From positions 1-24,612 of the IMG/VR virus record IMGVR_UViG_3300024264_000166: a stretch of 24,612 nt of DNA, one strand, 5' to 3'. Origin of the DNA: a virus. The notes under the pieces were generated by a model. The model was not told where the DNA came from and ran no database searches. It worked only from the letters and a program-made list of their open reading frames with translations. This document shows positions 5,432 through 22,812 of this stretch, in pieces. A program made the translations under genes and the position numbers. The stretch's first letter is position 1; every line of letters starts with the position of its first letter.

Positions 5432-5439
5432 TATTTATG
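5432..5439 (-). promoter_or_regulatory. Late promoter box CATAAATA for gp20
   Basis: CATAAATA followed by C on the minus strand differs from the T4 late consensus TATAAATA at one position. The predicted start is near 5426, leaving a 20-base leader that contains AAAGGAT before the gp20 ATG at 5406. It sits in the 36-base gap between two genes, where a promoter is expected. Confidence 0.75.
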
Positions 5440-5442
5440 CCT

Positions 5443-7440
5443 TTAACGGAAGTTATTGTTTCTTTCCTTTAAAGCACGTTCTAATACTGCATCTTCTTCA
5501 GCTTTTATTTGCTTTTGCAATGCTGCGATTTGTCTCTCCAATAGTGCCATTTCTTTATTGAGTCGAACTTTATCTCTCGGATGTTTAACTATTGTACTAG
5601 ATTGTTGCTTTTCTGTCAACCTATCTTTGAGTATACTTATTTCCTTGCTTTTAGGTATATCTTTAGGAACTGCTAATACTGGACTTACGCTAGGAGTAGT
5701 TTCACTAATTTTCATAGGTTTATGTGGATTATTTTCCTGTGCAGTGTCTTTTGGTAATGTGGTTGTTCCTATCTCTGTTTGAATAATTTCTTCATTAAAG
5801 AAATTAGTTGATTTCTTTTTAATAATTTCTGAGTTTTCATTAAACCAGTTTGAAACTGATTCAATTTTTACTGATAAATTATTTAAATCCCATGTAATAG
5901 CATTTTGTGCTGACAAGAACATTTTACTTGCATCGTTCATTGCTTGTACTGTACTACCTGATGCTGCTAATTTTGTTTTAGTGTCTTTGTTAAGTGCTTC
6001 AATTTCATCAGCACTTAACTCTGCATATTTTCCAAAGTTCTTTTTAATCAATATACCACTTGATTGTAACTGTGCAATTGATTGAAGTATACTATTATCT
6101 ACTGCACCAGCGTTTGCCATTTTATCCATATTCATGTTAGCAAAACTTTGCAATATATAGTTGCCAGCTTCTTCGCCACGCATTTCTCCTGTTTGAATCA
6201 TTCTTTCAATATTTCCAAAAAAGTCTTGTCCCATTGTTTTTGTAAATGCTGCTCTTGTCTCGTCAGAAAGTCTAGAATCAAATTCAAAGTTTTCAATATT
6301 ACCAGTGTACTGGAATAATTTCTCACCCAATGCTGCTGATAGCTCTTGTATCATACTTCCACCAGCACCTTGATCTGATATTAATGATAACTGTTCTAAT
6401 ATATGTTTTGCTGCACTAGCTTGTTCATTTTTACCATTGTCTCTTAAACCTTGTAAACCGGCCATTTCAAATGTTCCACTAATAGCAGACATTTGTCTTT
6501 GTAATGCATCGCTTCTAGTTAAAGAAGTTAAACTTGCCATTGCTGTACTTTCTACAACTAAGTCTTGAAAACCTTTATCTAACTTGGTTCCCATGCCAGC
6601 AACTTTCATATCTATTGCACCTGTTAAACGTTGTGTTTCTATATAAGACGCATACTGAGTCATTAATTCAGTATTTGAAAGTCCTAAGTCTCCCAACTTA
6701 TCTGTAGAGTCACTAAGTTTCTTAAACATACTTAAAAACTTTTTAGAACCGCCTGATACATCTGATCCAAGTGCTGTCATAGTACCACCAAAATTTGTTA
6801 CTGTATCTGAAAATGCATTATAAGTTATACCGGCTTTCATACTGTCAGAATACAAATCATCAAACTCACTTGCACTAGAATAAAATATAGCACCACTATC
6901 AATCATTTTCTTTTGTACTTCAGCAAACTGTTCAAATTTAGCTGCATTCCAACCTACCCATGCTAGTGCAACATCAGTTACTGTACTCATAGTACCGCCG
7001 AACTTAGTAAAAAATCCACTTAGTCCTTTAGATTTGTTCATCAGTTCTTTTAGACCGCCGCCGCCGGCTGGTCCTTTAAGTTTACCTGCTAAACTATCAA
7101 CAGCACCTACCATACTTGTTAACGGCTTTTCAGCATTACCAAAGAACGTTGCTGCCTGATTGATTGCACCTGCTGTACCTACTGTTCTATCTAAAAATGT
7201 TTTTTGATTTTTTTCTGTTGATTCAGAGTTTGTACCAGCTGCTTCAACCACTGCTTTCACAGATGCTAATACTTCGCTGTCTACTTCTTTAAGTTCTTTA
7301 ACACCGCCAAGCATTGTATCTGAAAGAATATTAGTACGTTGTAACTGCTTTGCCATAGCAAGCAATGTTGATTCACTTGCCCATGCTGGCAATTCAATAC
7401 TACTACCATCTGGTAAAGGTATATTATTCTTCTTAGCCAT
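5443..7440 (-). CDS. Tape-measure-like structural protein B
   Basis: This 665-aa protein has a long, mainly helical sequence with Gly/Ala-rich hydrophobic patches (about residues 105-165) and a charged coiled-coil tail (about 600-665). It resembles tape-measure proteins, which set tail length inside the tube. It is related to the gene just upstream: both share the N-terminal pattern P-WA-(S/T)-E-x-TL-x-A-(M/L) and the pattern (K/R)-x-(M/L)-ID-x-G-(A/S)-I in the middle, followed by a similar Gly/Met-containing region. Its ATG overlaps the upstream stop by one base (TAATG) with GGGGGAG before it, so translation is coupled. T4 has a single tape measure (gp29, 590 aa) elsewhere in the genome. The tape-measure role is inferred from composition, length and neighbours. 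Confidence 0.6.
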   Translation of the reverse strand: MAKKNNIPLPDGSSIELPAWASESTLLAMAKQLQRTNILSDTMLGGVKELKEVDSEVLASVKAVVEAAGTNSESTEKNQKTFLDRTVGTAGAINQAATFFGNAEKPLTSMVGAVDSLAGKLKGPAGGGGLKELMNKSKGLSGFFTKFGGTMSTVTDVALAWVGWNAAKFEQFAEVQKKMIDSGAIFYSSASEFDDLYSDSMKAGITYNAFSDTVTNFGGTMTALGSDVSGGSKKFLSMFKKLSDSTDKLGDLGLSNTELMTQYASYIETQRLTGAIDMKVAGMGTKLDKGFQDLVVESTAMASLTSLTRSDALQRQMSAISGTFEMAGLQGLRDNGKNEQASAAKHILEQLSLISDQGAGGSMIQELSAALGEKLFQYTGNIENFEFDSRLSDETRAAFTKTMGQDFFGNIERMIQTGEMRGEEAGNYILQSFANMNMDKMANAGAVDNSILQSIAQLQSSGILIKKNFGKYAELSADEIEALNKDTKTKLAASGSTVQAMNDASKMFLSAQNAITWDLNNLSVKIESVSNWFNENSEIIKKKSTNFFNEEIIQTEIGTTTLPKDTAQENNPHKPMKISETTPSVSPVLAVPKDIPKSKEISILKDRLTEKQQSSTIVKHPRDKVRLNKEMALLERQIAALQKQIKAEEDAVLERALKERNNNFR

Positions 7441-9362
7441 TATTGTACTCCCCCGTTAGTTACTTTCTTAGAATCCATATCGGCTTTCTTTGTTAGTAGC
7501 ATTGTGTAAAATTCTTTTTGTTCCATTAATTGAGTTTCTAACATCTGTTGTTGTGCTTCAGCACCTTCTATTTGCTCATCTGTTGCGTCTATAGTTTCGC
7601 CGGCTTCATTTGTGTATTCTGGTGTTTCAATGAACGAATTAATATGATCCATTCTACCTTGTGCTGCATCAATTTTTTGTTTAGCTACTTCAATTGTTAT
7701 ATCAATATTCTTTTCAGTAACTTGTGCAAGTGCTGCTTCTCTGTTAATAGTCATTTGTTTATCGTAAAATTCATCAAAGTCTGATGACTTACCAAAGAAA
7801 CCACTTACTGCTCTACCAAACTTCATCATGTTATCTGTTACAAGATTTATACCTGTATCCATTGTTCCAAACCCAGGTGTTAATATTTCTTGCAAATTTT
7901 GAAATGTTATTGCAAAGTCATCTAATGTATCAATTGATGAGTCTGCGTTATCAATTATACCTTTATAGTAAGATGTTGTTAATAGCTCGTCTGTGTCTGC
8001 TGACAAATATGATTTTGGCAGTGCTTTTGTTCTTGCTATAAGTTCGTTTGAGTCACGTAGGTCAGAACTGACTCCTGGTTTAGGCATTGCATCTCGCACC
8101 ATTTTTACAAGTTTTCTTTGTCTGTCTACCATTTGTTTATTGCTAGTAATTTTTCCTTGAGCTGTGTCTTCAACTAATGATATATATTCTTCTGCAACAC
8201 CTGGTCCTACTCTACGTAATTTTTCTATCATTTCTCTGTTAACATTGTTTGCTGCTGTTGTATCAAATTCAAAATCACCAACAGTTGATATTACGTCTTG
8301 TTCAAATGTTTTAGCAAAGTCTTCTCCAAATGTTCCTGTCATTAAAATTGCTGCCGTGCCTTGTGCTTGTTCTATATTTTTTACTGCTGCCTTGCCAAAT
8401 AATTCTTCAATCTTTTTTGTATTTTGTATAATATTAAATTGTAGCTCTTCATTAGTACGTGCTTCATTTCTGATGTTTAATGCTTCCATTCTTTGCATAC
8501 CTAAATTATTACCAGTAAACATTGCAAGTGCATTAGCTGATTCAAAAGAGTCAGCAACACGTTTTTTTGTCATTGCATTTATTTCTGTAATTTGTCCTAA
8601 CTGATAAAGTGTTTCAGTTTCTTGTGCTAGAGATCTAGCCGTATCTTGTATACCCATTCCAAAATCACTAAACTTGTCATCGTTCTCAAGTTGAGAAAGC
8701 ATTTCAGATAATTTATATTGTCCCTTAACAACATCACCACCTGCTGAAATCATAAATGGTTGTGTGGCTGCTGTTATGTCTGCAAATTCTTTAAAACCCA
8801 TACCCAGCGAACGTATACTCGATCTAAGTGTGGTGTACATATCTATATCACCAACAATAGAACCAAAGTCAATTAGTTGTCTAGCATATTTGTCTTGTTC
8901 AGTTAGAAGTTTAGCAAATACAGTACCAACACCAGTTGCTGCCACTGCACCATATAGACCTGCTTTAGTAACGCCGCCTATTACTGCACCAACTTTATTT
9001 TTTCCACCACCTAAAAAGTCGCCTGCGGCTGCGCCTGCATTATACATTAACTTAGCTGTTTCATGTGATAGATCTGCAACTGCTTGTATAGGTGACATAT
9101 CGGACATAATAGATCCCATTGCACCTTTTGCTTTTTTAGCACCCTTTTCTATCTTTTGTTCTATTTTTTCTGCTTTAGCTTGTGCTTCATCAGCTTTACG
9201 TGCAGTAGTTTTAACTGCACTAGCATTTGATTCGCTTAGTATGGCTGCAATCTGGCCCATTGTAATGTTTTGAGAGGTCAGATCACTATTGAGAGCTTGC
9301 AGTGTTTCTTCTGTAGCCCAAGGATAGCGTTTACTTATAAATTCAAAGTATTGGTTGTCCAT
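7440..9362 (-). CDS. Tape-measure-like structural protein A
   Basis: This 640-aa protein starts MDNQYFEFISKRYPWATEET. Residues 40-85 are a Lys/Ala/Glu coiled coil, about 115-155 a Gly/Ala/Val-rich hydrophobic segment that could span a membrane, and the remainder is long helical sequence with a second coiled coil near 560-625. This layout fits a tail tape-measure protein that may also insert into the host membrane during DNA entry. It is a paralogue of the next gene (5443-7440). The start has AGAAGGA upstream, and a late box (9423-9430) lies about 60 bases before the ATG. The divergent gp26/gp51-like pair lies immediately on the other side. The specific role is inferred, and another virion structural role is possible. 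Confidence 0.6.
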   Translation of the reverse strand: MDNQYFEFISKRYPWATEETLQALNSDLTSQNITMGQIAAILSESNASAVKTTARKADEAQAKAEKIEQKIEKGAKKAKGAMGSIMSDMSPIQAVADLSHETAKLMYNAGAAAGDFLGGGKNKVGAVIGGVTKAGLYGAVAATGVGTVFAKLLTEQDKYARQLIDFGSIVGDIDMYTTLRSSIRSLGMGFKEFADITAATQPFMISAGGDVVKGQYKLSEMLSQLENDDKFSDFGMGIQDTARSLAQETETLYQLGQITEINAMTKKRVADSFESANALAMFTGNNLGMQRMEALNIRNEARTNEELQFNIIQNTKKIEELFGKAAVKNIEQAQGTAAILMTGTFGEDFAKTFEQDVISTVGDFEFDTTAANNVNREMIEKLRRVGPGVAEEYISLVEDTAQGKITSNKQMVDRQRKLVKMVRDAMPKPGVSSDLRDSNELIARTKALPKSYLSADTDELLTTSYYKGIIDNADSSIDTLDDFAITFQNLQEILTPGFGTMDTGINLVTDNMMKFGRAVSGFFGKSSDFDEFYDKQMTINREAALAQVTEKNIDITIEVAKQKIDAAQGRMDHINSFIETPEYTNEAGETIDATDEQIEGAEAQQQMLETQLMEQKEFYTMLLTKKADMDSKKVTNGGVQ

Positions 9363-9396: not shown

Positions 9397-9404
9397 GATA
9401 AATA
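9397..9404 (+). promoter_or_regulatory. Late promoter box GATAAATA for gp26
   Basis: GATAAATA followed by CTATTG closely matches the T4 late promoter TATAAATACTATT. The predicted start is near 9410, and the gp26 ATG is at 9469 with GGAG at 9456-9459. It faces the minus-strand box at 9423-9430, so the two predicted transcripts overlap at their 5' ends by about 8 bases. Confidence 0.78.
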
Positions 9405-9422
9405 CTATTGTAATATACACAC

Positions 9423-9430
9423 TATTTATG
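9423..9430 (-). promoter_or_regulatory. Late promoter box CATAAATA for the tape-measure-like genes
   Basis: CATAAATA followed by G on the minus strand, with a predicted start near 9417 and a leader of about 55 bases before the ATG at 9362. It reads across the oppositely oriented gp26 promoter box. Confidence 0.68.
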
Positions 9431-9468: not shown

Positions 9469-10299
9469 ATGACAAACCCACTAATTCAAGCATATAGAAA
9501 ACCGGCTTTGTACATTGCATTGCCAAGTAAGGGTAATTTTTATAAAAAGAAACCTAAACTTAGCATTGATAATGAACTAGCGGTATATGCTATGACAGCA
9601 AGGGATGAACTTATAACTAAAACACCAGACGCTTTGTTTAACGGAGAAGCCACTGTAAGTTTAATTAGAAGTTGTTGCCCAGACATTGACGATCCAGATA
9701 CAATGCCTGTGAGCGATTTACTTGTAATACTAATTGGAATTAGACAAGCAAGTTACGGTAAGGAAATTGACGTAGACGTTAAGTGTCCAAAATGTGAATT
9801 TGATAATCAACTACAACTTGATGCAAGTATAATGTTGTCAAAGACAAAATCAGAAATTGTTGAACGTGAAGTAACGTTAGACTCTGGTTTTAAAATAACA
9901 ACAATGCCATACACATTAAGAGATAGAACAACACTACAAGTTCAACAAATAAAACAAAACAAAATGATTCAAGGATTAAGTGATGCAAATTTAGATGACG
10001 TTGCTAGACAAGAATTATTTGGAAAAACATTTGTTGAAATTGCTGAACTTACTGTTAGTTTAATTACTAATAGTATTCATAGTGTACAAGGTCCAGAAAC
10101 TGATGTTATCGAGGACAAGGAAATGATTAAAGAATGGTTACAAAATATAACGAGAGCAGACTACGATGTTATTAAAAACAAAATAGAAGCACTAAGTGAA
10201 AGTGGATTAGAAACTGAATTTAATGCTAGCTGTCAAGAATGTAATCACAATTGGAAAACTGGTGTTGATTTAGATATTGCAAATTTTTTCGGGGGTTGA
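9469..10299 (+). CDS. gp26: Baseplate hub assembly protein gp26-like
   Basis: This 276-aa protein starts MTNPLIQAYRKPALYIALPS and contains KGNFY, the typical opening of the T4 baseplate protein family that includes gp26. Two CxxC pairs (KCPKCEFDN near residues 104-112 and SCQECNHNW near 253-261) could bind one zinc ion. The start is ATG 9469, with GGAG 9 bases upstream; a TTG at 9454 is in frame but would lie before the ribosome site. T4 gp26 (208 aa) is needed to assemble the baseplate hub. The gene ends in AAT TTT TTC GGG GGT TGA, and the following small ORF is in the -1 frame, so part of the product may be extended by frameshifting (see the signal at 10281-10316). Confidence 0.78.
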   Translation: MTNPLIQAYRKPALYIALPSKGNFYKKKPKLSIDNELAVYAMTARDELITKTPDALFNGEATVSLIRSCCPDIDDPDTMPVSDLLVILIGIRQASYGKEIDVDVKCPKCEFDNQLQLDASIMLSKTKSEIVEREVTLDSGFKITTMPYTLRDRTTLQVQQIKQNKMIQGLSDANLDDVARQELFGKTFVEIAELTVSLITNSIHSVQGPETDVIEDKEMIKEWLQNITRADYDVIKNKIEALSESGLETEFNASCQECNHNWKTGVDLDIANFFGG

Positions 10300-10316
10300 T
10301 AGCTTCTCGTCAACCC
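10281..10316 (+). promoter_or_regulatory. Candidate -1 ribosomal frameshift signal joining gp26 to the gp51-like ORF
   Basis: In the gp26 reading frame the bases read A AAT TTT TTC, which contains two overlapping X-XXY-YYZ heptamers: A-AAT-TTT (10281-10287) and T-TTT-TTC (10284-10290). A perfect 7-bp stem follows, GGGTTGA (10293-10299) with TCAACCC (10310-10316) and a 10-base loop. It begins 5 bases after the first heptamer and 2 after the second. The -1 frame is open here and enters the 10296-10523 ORF through RGLIASRQ. The predicted fusion is 351 aa. The stem also buries the gp26 stop and the TTG that would otherwise start the second ORF. Confidence 0.55.
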
Positions 10317-10523
10317 GTAGAAATTCAAGCATTAGTTCAACGATACGAAAAACAATTAGAGAAATCTGAAGGTAGTTTCTTAGACATAGTAATACGCAGT
10401 GAAGGTGCAGTAAGTTATCAAGACATTATGATGATGCCTGTTCCGTCTGTAAAGTTATTAGTTGAAAGAATGAATCACAGAGTTGAAGAAATCAACAAAT
10501 CTAATCGCGGGTCTCGCCGGTAA
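10296..10523 (+). CDS. gp51-like small baseplate assembly ORF (TTG start or frameshift product)
   Basis: This 75-aa ORF is read from a TTG that overlaps the gp26 stop (TTGA), or more likely as the C-terminal part of a gp26 fusion made by -1 frameshifting. The sequence is helical and charged, with YQDIMMMPVPSVKLLVERMN near residues 42-61. T4 has gene 51, whose product helps assemble the baseplate hub, directly after gene 26, and small gp51-like ORFs occupy this place in relatives. There is no useful ribosome site: the GGGGG abuts the TTG with no spacing and lies in a stem. The 3' end overlaps the convergent 10501-10953 gene by 23 bases. The gp51 name rests mainly on position and size. Confidence 0.6.
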   Translation: MIASRQPVEIQALVQRYEKQLEKSEGSFLDIVIRSEGAVSYQDIMMMPVPSVKLLVERMNHRVEEINKSNRGSRR

Positions 10524-11027: not shown

Positions 11028-11103
11028 TCAATGCATATTGCTTACGCTTAATTAAAGTTATTAACTGTATTAGATAAAAAGCAATTTTTTAGATCTTATA
11101 TTA

Positions 11104-11583
11104 TATTAATATTTATCTTGTTCCTTGGCAAGATATTTTATTCACACTTAGCCTACTACGGGCCAAGTGTAAAATGAGTTCTTGGCATAGAACAGCACCC
11201 ACAAGTACTATAGTAAACCTAGTTTAACACCTAGGAAGGGCGGTTATGCTGTACCCTTATTACATACTGCTTTATTAACGCAGAAACATCCGGAGCCATA
11301 GTATCGACTTTTGGACTATCCTCAAGTTACGAGCGTTCGTAGAGCTTGATCATTTTGATTTGTCAAATCAGTGTATTGACATTATTAGGCACACCAGCAT
11401 CCAGTCACGTGAATTCGTAACCTCAAGGTGAGTCGACCCTTGCCGACCAAACGGAGCCTTGCTGCCTTTATTAGTGTTGTGTTAGCCTATATTTGCGAGA
11501 TTTGGTATCTGTGTATTTTGGTTTGTATTAGTAATTATCTGATGCTTTAATTATTAGCAGATAACGCAGTTAAAACCTTAATT
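11104..11583 (-). ncRNA. Candidate large structured non-coding RNA
   Basis: No ORF of useful length covers 10954-11614, yet the minus strand is packed with stems. They include 11535-11541/11558-11564 (7 bp), 11404-11409/11416-11421, 11424-11428/11438-11442, 11356-11361/11365-11370, the nested 11322-11349, 11298-11302/11315-11319, 11267-11270/11280-11283, 11236-11240/11254-11258, 11218-11222/11231-11235, 11178-11182/11189-11193, 11144-11153/11161-11170 (10 bp) and 11115-11120/11129-11134. A long-range helix pairs 11386-11398 with 11461-11464 plus 11479-11489. Two stems (11404-11421 and 11144-11170) contain a G-U pair on the minus strand that becomes C-A on the plus strand, so only minus-strand RNA folds fully. 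A consensus sigma70 promoter sits at its 5' end. The sequence is richer in G and C than the flanks. I recognise no known RNA family; ends are approximate and no strong terminator is visible. Confidence 0.6.
11110..11117 (-). promoter_or_regulatory. Possible late box GATAAATA upstream of the 150-aa gene
   Basis: GATAAATA followed by TTA on the minus strand matches the late boxes elsewhere in the window. The predicted start is near 11104, giving a leader of about 150 bases that carries the two TAAC-loop hairpins. It overlaps the 3' side of the last stem of the candidate RNA. The surrounding DNA is very AT-rich, so a chance match is possible. Confidence 0.4.
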
Positions 11584-11618
11584 CTTGTTACTATAACAAG
11601 AAAGATATGCGTTGTCAA
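11582..11618 (-). promoter_or_regulatory. Sigma70-type promoter with a palindrome over the -10 box
   Basis: On the minus strand TTGACA (11618-11613), a 17-base spacer and TATAGT (11595-11590) form a near-perfect host-type promoter. The predicted start is near 11583, directing transcription into the structured non-coding region. The TGA inside TTGACA is the stop codon of the GIY-YIG-like gene. A perfect 9-bp inverted repeat, TTCTTGTTA-CTA-TAACAAGAA (11582-11602), covers the -10 box and could be an operator or a hairpin in read-through RNA. Confidence 0.8.
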
Positions 11619-12058
11619 CCTTTTTTTAGATGTTCTGTAAGAATCTTTGAACTGCCAACTCTTACATTAATAATTCCGTTATAGTATTCATCGGTTTCTA
11701 ATACCTTACGGTCAAATTGTTCTTTAGCTTCTAAGTAGCTTGCAACGCCTCTACTAGGACAGAAATGTATTATTTCTCTGGTAAACTTATCTGCACCAAG
11801 TGTTAGTACGTCAGCATTTAAATGATCCGACGAACCCCAATAAGTCTGCCAATCACTTTCTTTTGTACCACGTCTTTTGTTTTTCTTACCTTTTAATGGA
11901 GGCTTAGTAGTTTTAAACTTTGCTAACTTCTTACCAATGTATTTTCTATTATTAGTAAGGTTAGTTATTAAGTATACAAATGCTTCTACACCATCTGGTA
12001 TTTCAGTGATTATTTTATTTTTGTATGTCCATGGGACCGTCTTCTTCGTACCACTCAT
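11615..12058 (-). CDS. GIY-YIG-like nuclease-family protein
   Basis: This 147-aa protein has VYLITNLTNNRKYIGKK at about residues 28-44. This matches the two short motifs of the GIY-YIG fold, with the first (GIY) replaced by VYL and the second (YIG) intact. Trp, Ser and Glu residues further on (WQTYWGSSDHL, about 70-80; EAKEQFDRKVL, about 110-120) could supply the rest of a small nuclease-like domain, with Glu110 or Glu113 as a candidate metal ligand. The start ATG at 12058 overlaps the end of the preceding 55-aa ORF by 44 bases in another frame. The stop TGA lies inside the -35 hexamer of the next promoter. GIY-YIG proteins in T4-like phages include homing enzymes, but this one has no flanking intron and may be a stable accessory nuclease. 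Activity is not certain because the first motif is degenerate. Confidence 0.65.
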   Translation of the reverse strand: MSGTKKTVPWTYKNKIITEIPDGVEAFVYLITNLTNNRKYIGKKLAKFKTTKPPLKGKKNKRRGTKESDWQTYWGSSDHLNADVLTLGADKFTREIIHFCPSRGVASYLEAKEQFDRKVLETDEYYNGIINVRVGSSKILTEHLKKG

Positions 12059-14975: not shown

Positions 14976-15893
14976 TTATTCTCCAGTTGGTTCTGATTGA
15001 GGTTCGCTGTCTTTAATTAATACTGTTTTCTTTAGTGTTGGATTCTGTGCTTTAAGAGCTTGCTCACGTTCTTCATGTGCTTTCCACTCAGCATTAAATG
15101 TTCTAGTATTACTTGGATTCAAACCTTCTTCTTCTAATAAGTCATCTCTAATGTTCTGACTACGTTTTTCTAAATTAAGAACTCTTGTAAAACTATTGTT
15201 AATAGCGGCAGTATAATATGCAAATGGATTTTGTGATTTAAATTCATTAAACTGTAATCCTATTTGTGCTAACTGTAATAATGCTTGTCCACGCATTTCG
15301 TCTACATAAGTGTATCCACGCCAGTTACCACGCATACTATATCTCTCACATAGTTTAATATACATACGAGCTAGTCTATCGTTTGTTTTTCCATGGCCTA
15401 CACTAAAATGACCGTTATCTCTACCACCTACCCAATGACTACGAGCTACTTCTTCTAGATCGCCTTCAATATACGCATAATGCTTAAATGGTGGGAAGTT
15501 ACATTTAGCATGTAAATCTGCTTCTGTTTTTGGTTTGTTTTTTCTGTTTTCTTGTGGGACATGACCAAATGTCATTACTCTAACCACAATATCATCGTCT
15601 CGAATAGTATCAACATCTACTGCAAAGTCTGCTGCCCTGGGTTTAGTTTTTTTGCCTGTTAGGCCCTGTTCCCATCGTTTAACTTCAGCTTCATGTGCTA
15701 GTTTTTGTAATCGTTTTGCTCTATTCTGTTTAGCTTCTGCCGTTACTTCCTTAGTTATTGCATCTAAGCCTTCAACAATAATATCATAATGAGTGTATTG
15801 ATCATCACGTGCCCAGCAATAAGACATCTTACTACTGTGTATTTCTCTTAACAAATCTTTGTTTGTTAGGTAAAACTGTTTTGGTGTTTTCAT
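14976..15893 (-). CDS. gp55: Late-transcription sigma factor gp55 (enlarged)
   Basis: This 305-aa protein corresponds to T4 gp55 (185 aa), which directs host RNA polymerase to late promoters. The N-terminus FYLTNKDLLREI (7-18) matches the T4 start region YVNNKELLQAI. The sigma-region-2-like core is at residues 171-250 (NDRLARMYIKLCERYS, YTYVDEMRGQALL, SQNPFAYYTAAINNSFTRVL). Between these two parts T4 has about 25 residues and this protein about 155, containing Lys/Arg-rich helices and a segment around HVPQENRKNKPKTEADLH. The C-terminus ends KDSEPQSEPTGE and lacks the hydrophobic tail that binds the sliding clamp in T4. It is first in the gp55-47-46 operon, behind a perfect sigma70 promoter. 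AAAGGA precedes the ATG. Confidence 0.88.
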   Translation of the reverse strand: MKTPKQFYLTNKDLLREIHSSKMSYCWARDDQYTHYDIIVEGLDAITKEVTAEAKQNRAKRLQKLAHEAEVKRWEQGLTGKKTKPRAADFAVDVDTIRDDDIVVRVMTFGHVPQENRKNKPKTEADLHAKCNFPPFKHYAYIEGDLEEVARSHWVGGRDNGHFSVGHGKTNDRLARMYIKLCERYSMRGNWRGYTYVDEMRGQALLQLAQIGLQFNEFKSQNPFAYYTAAINNSFTRVLNLEKRSQNIRDDLLEEEGLNPSNTRTFNAEWKAHEEREQALKAQNPTLKKTVLIKDSEPQSEPTGE

Positions 15894-15990: not shown

Positions 15991-16599
15991 ATGCTAATTG
16001 AACACATATTAACAGAGGGTGTAAACAACATTGCCGTATTTTACGGCGGTCGTTTCCAACCCATGCACCAAGGACACAAAGATGTTTATAAACACTTGTG
16101 TAATAAATTTGGTGCTGATAACGTATTTATAGCTACAACTTTTAGCCAAAAAGCAAAGAAAGCACATGCTGGCGGCGACTTTAGTAGCGATCCATTTACG
16201 TTTGATGAAAAAGCAAGCATCATGAGAAAGATGTTTGACATACCAGGAGATAAGATTGTTAACACAAATCCTTATAGACCAGACCTAGGAGCAGTAAACA
16301 GAGACCCTGCAGAAACTGCTACAATACTAGTATATGGTGCAAAGGATGCAGATAGGTTAGCAACTGGAACAGGATTCTTACATAAGATGCCAGAAGACAT
16401 GGACGAACTAATTCCAACTGCACAAGACAGAGGTTACGTTTACGTAGCTCCATTAATGCAGGGTGGAATGAGTGCAAGTGACTTTAGAGCAACTATGTCA
16501 AGTGCTGCACCAGATGAAGAGAAGCAAAAGAGCTTTACTAATTTCTTTGGTAAATTTGATCCAAATGTATTTGGATTTATTAAGGAGCGTCTAACGTAA
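15991..16599 (+). CDS. Nucleotidyltransferase (cytidylyl/adenylyltransferase superfamily) with capsid-targeting-like N-terminus
   Basis: This 202-aa protein has the superfamily signature GGRFQPMHQGH (residues 19-29; HxGH as HQGH) and the C-terminal MSASDFR motif (160-166), equivalent to the ISxTxxR nucleotide-binding motif. The closest well-known enzymes transfer AMP or CMP, for example NMN adenylyltransferase; the substrate cannot be read from the sequence. It is the first gene under a late promoter, and its stop overlaps the next gene by one base (TAATG), so it is made together with baseplate proteins. The N-terminus MLIEHILTEG contains LTE, a fit to the gp21 cleavage rule, and resembles in length and spacing the capsid-targeting peptide of T4 internal proteins. 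It may therefore be packaged in the head; that is inference. Similar genes are found in marine T4-like phages. Confidence 0.8.
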   Translation: MLIEHILTEGVNNIAVFYGGRFQPMHQGHKDVYKHLCNKFGADNVFIATTFSQKAKKAHAGGDFSSDPFTFDEKASIMRKMFDIPGDKIVNTNPYRPDLGAVNRDPAETATILVYGAKDADRLATGTGFLHKMPEDMDELIPTAQDRGYVYVAPLMQGGMSASDFRATMSSAAPDEEKQKSFTNFFGKFDPNVFGFIKERLT

Positions 16600-21849: not shown

Positions 21850-22395
21850 TTGAATCACGCCGTACTCTTACTTAACGCAGATGGAAACCCGTTATCTATA
21901 TTTCCGGTGAGCACGATTAGTTGGCAGAACGCAGTCAAAGCATTGTGGGGTGACAAGGTACATGTTATTAAAAATTATGATAACAAATTCCTCCGGTCAC
22001 CTACAGTAACTATTCCATTCCCAAGTATTGTTATGCTTAATACATATCACAGACAACCTACTAGAGCCAAGTTTACTAGACGTAATGTTTACATTAGAGA
22101 TGACTATACGTGTCAATATTGTGGGAATAACTTTGCTTACAACGAACTTACACTAGATCATGTTATACCAAAGTCAGCAGGAGGAAGACTAACTTGGGTT
22201 AATACAGTTACAGCATGCGGTCCTTGCAATGTAAAGAAGAGCAATAACGCACATCCACTTCCCAAAAAGAAGCCAATTATTCCTACATGGCATCAAATCA
22301 ACTATTCAAACAAGCGTCATTTCTTATCAATTCCCGATATAGCATGGCAAGATTATGTACAATGGCCAGAAGATAAGCTAATTTTGCAATCATAA
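21850..22395 (+). CDS. HNH endonuclease (TTG start)
   Basis: This is a 181-aa protein whose HNH domain spans about residues 73-140: RRNVYIRDDYTCQYCGNNF, LTLDHVIPKSAGG and VTACGPCNVKKSNN. The two CxxC pairs (CQYC and CGPC) should hold a structural zinc, and His in LDHV is the likely catalytic base, so the nuclease looks intact. The start is TTG at 21850 with AAGGA 8 bases upstream; the N-terminus MNHAVLLLNADGNPLSIFPV is typical of this family. It lies between structural genes, is not coupled to either neighbour and has its own promoter-like box. It could be a free-standing homing-type gene or a stable component such as a packaging-linked nuclease. No intron is seen nearby. Confidence 0.85.
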   Translation: MNHAVLLLNADGNPLSIFPVSTISWQNAVKALWGDKVHVIKNYDNKFLRSPTVTIPFPSIVMLNTYHRQPTRAKFTRRNVYIRDDYTCQYCGNNFAYNELTLDHVIPKSAGGRLTWVNTVTACGPCNVKKSNNAHPLPKKKPIIPTWHQINYSNKRHFLSIPDIAWQDYVQWPEDKLILQS

Positions 22396-22428: not shown

Positions 22429-22812
22429 ATGAGCAATATAATTGGATACACAACAATAGACCAACCATACACAAGTAGCAATCTATCTGATATAGATTTA
22501 GCGAAGCGTGACCTGCTGAATCACTTTCATATCCGTAAAGGAGAGAAGTGGACAGACCCTGAATTTGGTTGTGACTTACCATTATACATATTTCAACCCT
22601 TAGATGACATCACAATGGATGCTATTAGAGAAGAAGTGTATAATGTAGTAAATTATGATCCAAGATTTACAGTTGACGATACTAATATTATTGTTAATCA
22701 AGATGCTCACTATGTTACTATCAATGTGAAGCTAACATATGTACCAACAACAACTGCAATAGATTTGCAGATCAAATTCGATAATGAATTTCAACAGGAC
22801 GCAGAGTTTTAA
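22429..22812 (+). CDS. gp25: Baseplate wedge protein gp25
   Basis: This 127-aa protein matches the gp25 family of myovirus and contractile-machine baseplates (T4 gp25 is 132 aa). It has LAKRDLLNHFHIRKGEKW (about 25-42) followed by DPEFGCDLPLYIFQPLD (44-60), an EExYNVVNYDPR segment (76-87) and a terminal beta sheet. In T4 it joins the sheath-initiating ring to the wedge. The ATG at 22429 is only 5 bases after a late promoter box and has no ribosome site. No other in-frame start preserves the conserved N-terminus. The stop is two bases before the gp6 ATG, so gp25 and gp6 form one unit. Confidence 0.92.
   Translation: MSNIIGYTTIDQPYTSSNLSDIDLAKRDLLNHFHIRKGEKWTDPEFGCDLPLYIFQPLDDITMDAIREEVYNVVNYDPRFTVDDTNIIVNQDAHYVTINVKLTYVPTTTAIDLQIKFDNEFQQDAEF

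Follow-up and report, generated by a model that had tools for sequence, protein, structure and literature searches.

A conserved –1 frameshift site very probably yields a gp26/gp51-type tail assembly chaperone pair in a marine T4-superfamily phage

How does a phage gene that ends in a run of six T residues continue into an open frame that has no evident start of its own? This question is raised by a gp26-like gene in a 24,612-nucleotide virus record (24.6 kb; the window, meaning the whole stretch of DNA that was analysed), which carries a T4-like module (Table 1). The gene ends GCA AAT TTT TTC GGG GGT TGA, with its stop at 10297-10299, and the –1 frame is open from the T run to a stop at 10521-10523, as an original prediction made from the letters alone had claimed. 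That prediction suggested that a –1 frameshift may fuse the gp26-like frame to a gp51-like one, making a short and a long protein that may act like gpG and gpGT. Our analysis indicates that the long form of a chaperone is very probably made by a –1 ribosomal slip at the T run in this marine T4-superfamily phage, and, judged as a sequence finding, the case for a –1 frameshift site and a gp26/gp51-type chaperone pair is strong.

Table 1. Features of the window that bear on the predicted frameshift and its surroundings.
Feature	Position	Strand	Evidence or remark
Tape-measure-like protein 2, 665 aa	5443..7440	-	Tandem paralogue of protein 1; then portal
Portal	Follows tape-measure-like gene 5443-7440		Pfam Portal_T4, E 2e-105
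Tape-measure-like protein 1, 640 aa	7440..9362	-	Divergent from gp26; paralogue of 5443..7440 gene
T4-late-promoter-like GATAAATA	9397..9404	+	Candidate gp26/TAC promoter
T4-late-promoter-like CATAAATA	9423..9430	-	Candidate promoter of tape-measure-like genes
gp26-like gene, short form (TAC-N), 276 aa	9469..10299	+	Pfam T4_baseplate, E 3e-20; PHROG 150 baseplate hub, E 6e-21
Predicted fusion (TAC-NC), 351 aa	join(9469..10290,10290..10523)	+	
Slippery heptamer T-TTT-TTC	10284..10290	+	T-TTT-TTY in 115/115 loci; codon-conservation outlier
–1 frame extension (TAC-C; 'gp51' in cyanophage annotation), 77 aa after FF	10290..10523	+	Open and homologous in all loci
Stem-loop, 8 bp, candidate clade-specific stimulator	10293-10300 / 10309-10316	+	Covariation, fold z-scores
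Gene in place of Atu_ph07 / 121Q late sigma factor	14976-15893		
gp46/gp47-like nuclease genes	In window		
gp25-like and hub genes	In window		

The heptamer by itself is no rarity, with 16 copies of TTTTTTC in the window against 12.2 expected; the evidence beyond chance comes from conservation among related loci. Homologous loci were gathered from environmental contigs and from 15 jumbo phages (Atu_ph07, PA5oct, 121Q, GAP32, XacN1, CBB, Phosso, RaK2, Munch, SCTP-2, Vibrio 2.275, RAS14, XaC1, Hallingskeid and BF), giving 115 loci with a readable gp26 end, some of which duplicate others from the same contig, with 70 distinct sequences when the window is counted; a scan of the collection with one jumbo phage record (L036) as the query found nothing. 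Alignment of the junction in these relatives, which had been proposed as a check, found T-TTT-TTC kept in 113 of the 115 loci and T-TTT-TTT in the remaining two, such that every locus has a slippery heptamer at the joint. Its phase in gp26 is NNT TTT TTC, in which, after a –1 slip, the P-site TTT and the A-site TTC both re-pair with TTT. Among the 70 distinct sequences, the TTT codon is conserved in 100% and the TTC codon in 97%, compared with a top-codon share of 88% for the next most conserved of the other conserved gp26 columns and a median of 61%. The codon 5' of TTT comes in eight kinds (AAT, AGT, GAT, CAT, TAT, GCT, CGT and ACT) and ends in T in all 70, against about two thirds of similar NNY codons in the rest of the gene. 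A preceding codon that varies while always ending in T, followed by a fixed TTT TTC, is what marks slippage of tandem tRNAs. With the TTC position excluded, the joint probability of the pattern, calculated from the codon usage of 27 less redundant sequences, is roughly 10^-11, a rough figure that ignores shared ancestry and is indicative only. The second, overlapping heptamer of the original prediction, A-AAT-TTT, did not survive this comparison and was rejected as a shift site, its AAT being replaced by AGT, CAT, GAT, TAT, GCT, CGT or ACT in relatives. Sequencing error at the T run was likewise rejected, because the same joint recurs in isolate genomes and in many independent assemblies.

Conservation extends beyond the heptamer into the –1 frame, which is open for 69-80 aa in all 115 loci, with the gp26 stop falling 3-33 nt 3' of the heptamer; the arrangement is thus a short reading frame overlapped by a longer, startless –1 frame. 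In every locus, protein homology in the –1 frame begins exactly at the heptamer, with FFR (in a few cases FFQ or FFY). Divergence at codon positions 1, 2 and 3 of this frame was 0.40, 0.25 and 0.55 among 40 freshwater-type sequences and 0.26, 0.15 and 0.42 among six marine sequences, and this third-position bias indicates that the frame evolves as coding sequence. Taken with the heptamer, the conservation across all 115 loci strongly supports the proposed –1 fusion of gp26 with the gp51-like frame. The extension is modelled by AlphaFold as a helical hairpin (pLDDT 89); it had no convincing Pfam or PHROG family, and tblastn against phages returned no match at E 0.01, which we attribute to the divergence of its relatives. 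None of the 15 annotated jumbo-phage records (L001-L003 and L029-L040) joins the two frames; the extension is either unannotated or entered as a hypothetical protein in its own right.

The T4_baseplate match of the short form makes it a homologue of T4 gp26, it has homologues in 62 phage records, and it carries four zinc-ribbon-like cysteines (CPKC ... CQEC). Its AlphaFold model is confident (pLDDT 85) and resembles predicted phage hub assembly proteins, with Aeromonas phage 25 Gp26 as a Foldseek match (E 4e-6); no solved structure resembling either TAC-N or TAC-C was found by structure comparison.

What the long form is can be read from more distant phages. T-TTT-TTC also stands at the end of gp26 in P-SSM2, Syn1, ACP17 and K575 (T-TTT-TTT in phiM12), and in the cyanophages, ACP17 and K575 the –1 frame that follows is gp51 where annotated; the known T4-like gp26/gp51 chaperones share with the window a homologous TAC-N, a homologous C-terminal extension and, in these four phages, the same heptamer. 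The hhalign alignment of the jumbo-phage and cyanophage fusions runs across the joint (98.2%, E 4e-14), and that of the cyanophage fusion with T4 gp51 extends from end to end (97.4%, E 1e-11). The homology of both halves of the long form to T4 gp51 runs via the cyanophages, the direct comparison of the jumbo-phage fusion with T4 gp51 being weak (3%, E 0.014). On the end-to-end alignment, T4 gp51 is the single-frame version of the fusion, and the short form is T4 gp26, with EFFELL at its terminus. Genes 26 and 51 of T4 itself are separate and divergent, on opposite strands, whereas a single frameshifted gene is found here, which therefore belongs to the frameshifted sub-type, as in cyanophages. 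The original prediction regarded a chaperone role for T4 gp26 and gp51 as not established, but one had already been put forward: Vladimirov, Gautam and Davidson (2022) reportedly proposed gp26/gp51 as the tail assembly chaperones of T4-like phages, with frameshifting said to be conserved in several T4-like groups and T4 said to use separate genes 26 and 51. The locus studied here differs from the known T4-like chaperones in belonging to a separate branch (the RaK2, 121Q, PA5oct and Atu_ph07 type, together with marine and freshwater contigs), in having a covarying stem in one clade and in being divergent from the tape-measure-like genes rather than upstream of them.

Those neighbours were part of the original prediction, which placed two tape-measure-like genes just across divergent promoters. 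The pair and its position were confirmed: the two proteins are paralogues (hhalign 99.5%, E 7e-23), and the TAC gene adjoins their genes and is transcribed divergently from them. Both are related (98.1% for the 640-aa protein) to a single structural protein encoded between portal and gp26 in RaK2-type jumbo phages, such that two tandem genes (5443-9362, minus strand) stand in the window where those phages have one. The RaK2 homologue was likened by its annotators to a tape-measure protein, and the PA5oct homologue was detected by mass spectrometry. Because neither gene has a Pfam or PHROG match, 'tape measure' is a putative label, drawn from position, size and relatives' annotation; profile comparisons gave no link to T4 gp29 or to the cyanophage candidates. 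In P-SSM2, too, gp51 is followed by two large genes, for which no homology was found. In the gap between gp26 and the tape-measure-like genes, ATAAATA motifs point both ways (9398, plus strand; 9423, minus strand); the window holds seven such motifs, which is not above chance. Five of these lie just upstream of genes, at 5432 (portal), 9398 (gp26), 9423 (tape-measure-like genes), 15962 (open reading frame at 15991) and 22417 (open reading frame at 22429).

The gpG/gpGT-like reading is supported by the adjoining tape-measure-like genes and by the fusion's homology, which leads from cyanophage gp26+gp51 on to T4 gp51. The likeness to lambda is one of arrangement: a short chaperone and a –1-frameshifted long one are encoded beside tape-measure genes. 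Lambda uses another slippery site. A parallel at the shift site is found in the Vandenendeviridae and Andersonviridae, the TAC genes of which have a poly-T –1 site at the 3' end of TAC-N and a conserved open –1 frame, although their motif is GTTTTT and these phage families are unrelated (PMC12846349). Poly-T shift sites are also known in TAC-N genes of T4-like phages (PMC12846349). The frameshift could nevertheless be real and its products be parts of the baseplate hub instead of tape-measure chaperones, as the family names in Pfam and PHROG say, as some T4 genetics placing gp26 in the hub would have it (PMC3004832) and as the 'structural protein' label on the homologue in Pectobacterium phage CBB might suggest. 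We consider this improbable: T4 gp51 is essential yet absent from the particle, and the same review of the T4 tail that gives the hub genetics also counts gp26 and gp51 among the hub assembly chaperones (PMC3004832); a short form paired with a frameshifted long form is a hallmark of tail assembly chaperones; and the T4-like genes have reportedly been reassigned in the 2022 study by Vladimirov, Gautam and Davidson, which PMC10885494 and PMC12846349 cite. The reading that we hold to be highly likely is that of a single tail assembly chaperone, made by this locus in two lengths via a –1 slip at T-TTT-TTC.

Less probable than a hub role is termination-reinitiation with no frameshift at all, in which the downstream frame would be a gene of its own that begins at TTG 10296 through a TTGA overlap. 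The TTG does overlap the gp26 stop, and reinitiation may have a precedent outside the group in Vibrio phage D507 (L127, about 5700-5900), where the heptamer is missing, the gp26 stop and a start overlap in TAATG and a homologous extension comes next, possibly marking a switch from frameshifting to reinitiation. However, the TTG is not conserved, being CTG in two relatives (L006 and L013), and many relatives do not show this overlap, their gp26 stop being up to 33 nt away from the heptamer. Across the 70 distinct sequences, no conserved start codon or ribosome site was found for the extension: about half lack a start codon among the first 25, only three combine a start with a ribosome-like site, and homology covers the residues encoded right at the heptamer. 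Equally unlikely is slippage of RNA polymerase on the T6 run, which by adding one U would yield the same FFR... protein, but for which T6 is short and NNC TTT TTT would serve equally with the same amino acids, yet that phase occurs in none of the 70 distinct sequences, the fixed NNT TTT TTC matching the need of tandem tRNA slippage.

A stem-loop follows the heptamer in the window, contains the gp26 stop and overlaps two coding frames. The original prediction described it as a 7-bp stem; as RNA it has 8 bp and it covaries, but its conservation is confined to the window's marine clade. In 12 clade members (10 distinct), 98.8% of stem cells are paired, with compensatory changes at two pairs, against 11-49% paired in slid controls, and the 40-nt fold has z = -3.0 (-2.3 without the heptamer). 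Outside the clade the stem is absent, and it was rejected as a general signal; strong hairpins of another kind occur in Atu_ph07, PA5oct and P-SSM2, and those of the enterobacterial jumbo phages are weak. It begins 2 nt 3' of the heptamer, closer than the usual spacing of 5-9 nt, and may act as a lineage-specific stimulator.

In the mechanism that we propose, most ribosomes would stop at 10297 and release the short gp26-like TAC-N, while a minority would slip –1 at T-TTT-TTC and produce TAC-NC with its 77-aa helical extension, aided in the window's clade by the stem-loop. By analogy with lambda gpG/gpGT, both forms would coat the tape-measure protein, presumably that of the neighbouring genes, and recruit tail-tube subunits. 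More tentatively, and at somewhat less than even odds in our estimation, the frameshifted chaperone may be the ancestral state of the T4 superfamily, RaK2/121Q-type phages included, with T4 having dispensed with the frameshift once gene 51 encoded the long form separately and gene 26 was retained for the short one, and with one pair in the window's clade serving two tandem paralogous tape-measure proteins. If true, one chaperone pair for two tape-measure paralogues would mean that tail length is controlled through a new arrangement.

The device is already known in other T4-like phages; what is added here is a new branch, missed in the jumbo-phage annotations that were examined, by which the published gp26/gp51 frameshift-chaperone idea is extended to a large and diverse set of environmental and jumbo phages. 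An annotation fix follows, namely joining the two frames in 15 jumbo-phage records, and the question of T4 gp51 becomes testable in a laboratory phage, 121Q, an E. coli phage that has the fused version.

Two further features of the window lie outside this locus. A free-standing HNH endonuclease gene (21850-22395, plus strand) sits amid baseplate genes, and about 500 nt without a substantial open reading frame (11040-11620, minus strand favoured) lie beside a SegE-type GIY-YIG gene. The window had no Rfam family match at the gathering threshold, no tRNA and no tmRNA. Within its clade, this second region has 69-94% nucleotide identity, and its consensus fold reaches -82 kcal/mol on the minus strand, compared with -60 on the plus strand. 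The minus-strand fold has 85 pairs, 17 of them with compensatory changes, and a core motif recurs in 46 stretches of viral contigs, making the region a candidate large structured phage RNA of a family not matched in Rfam.
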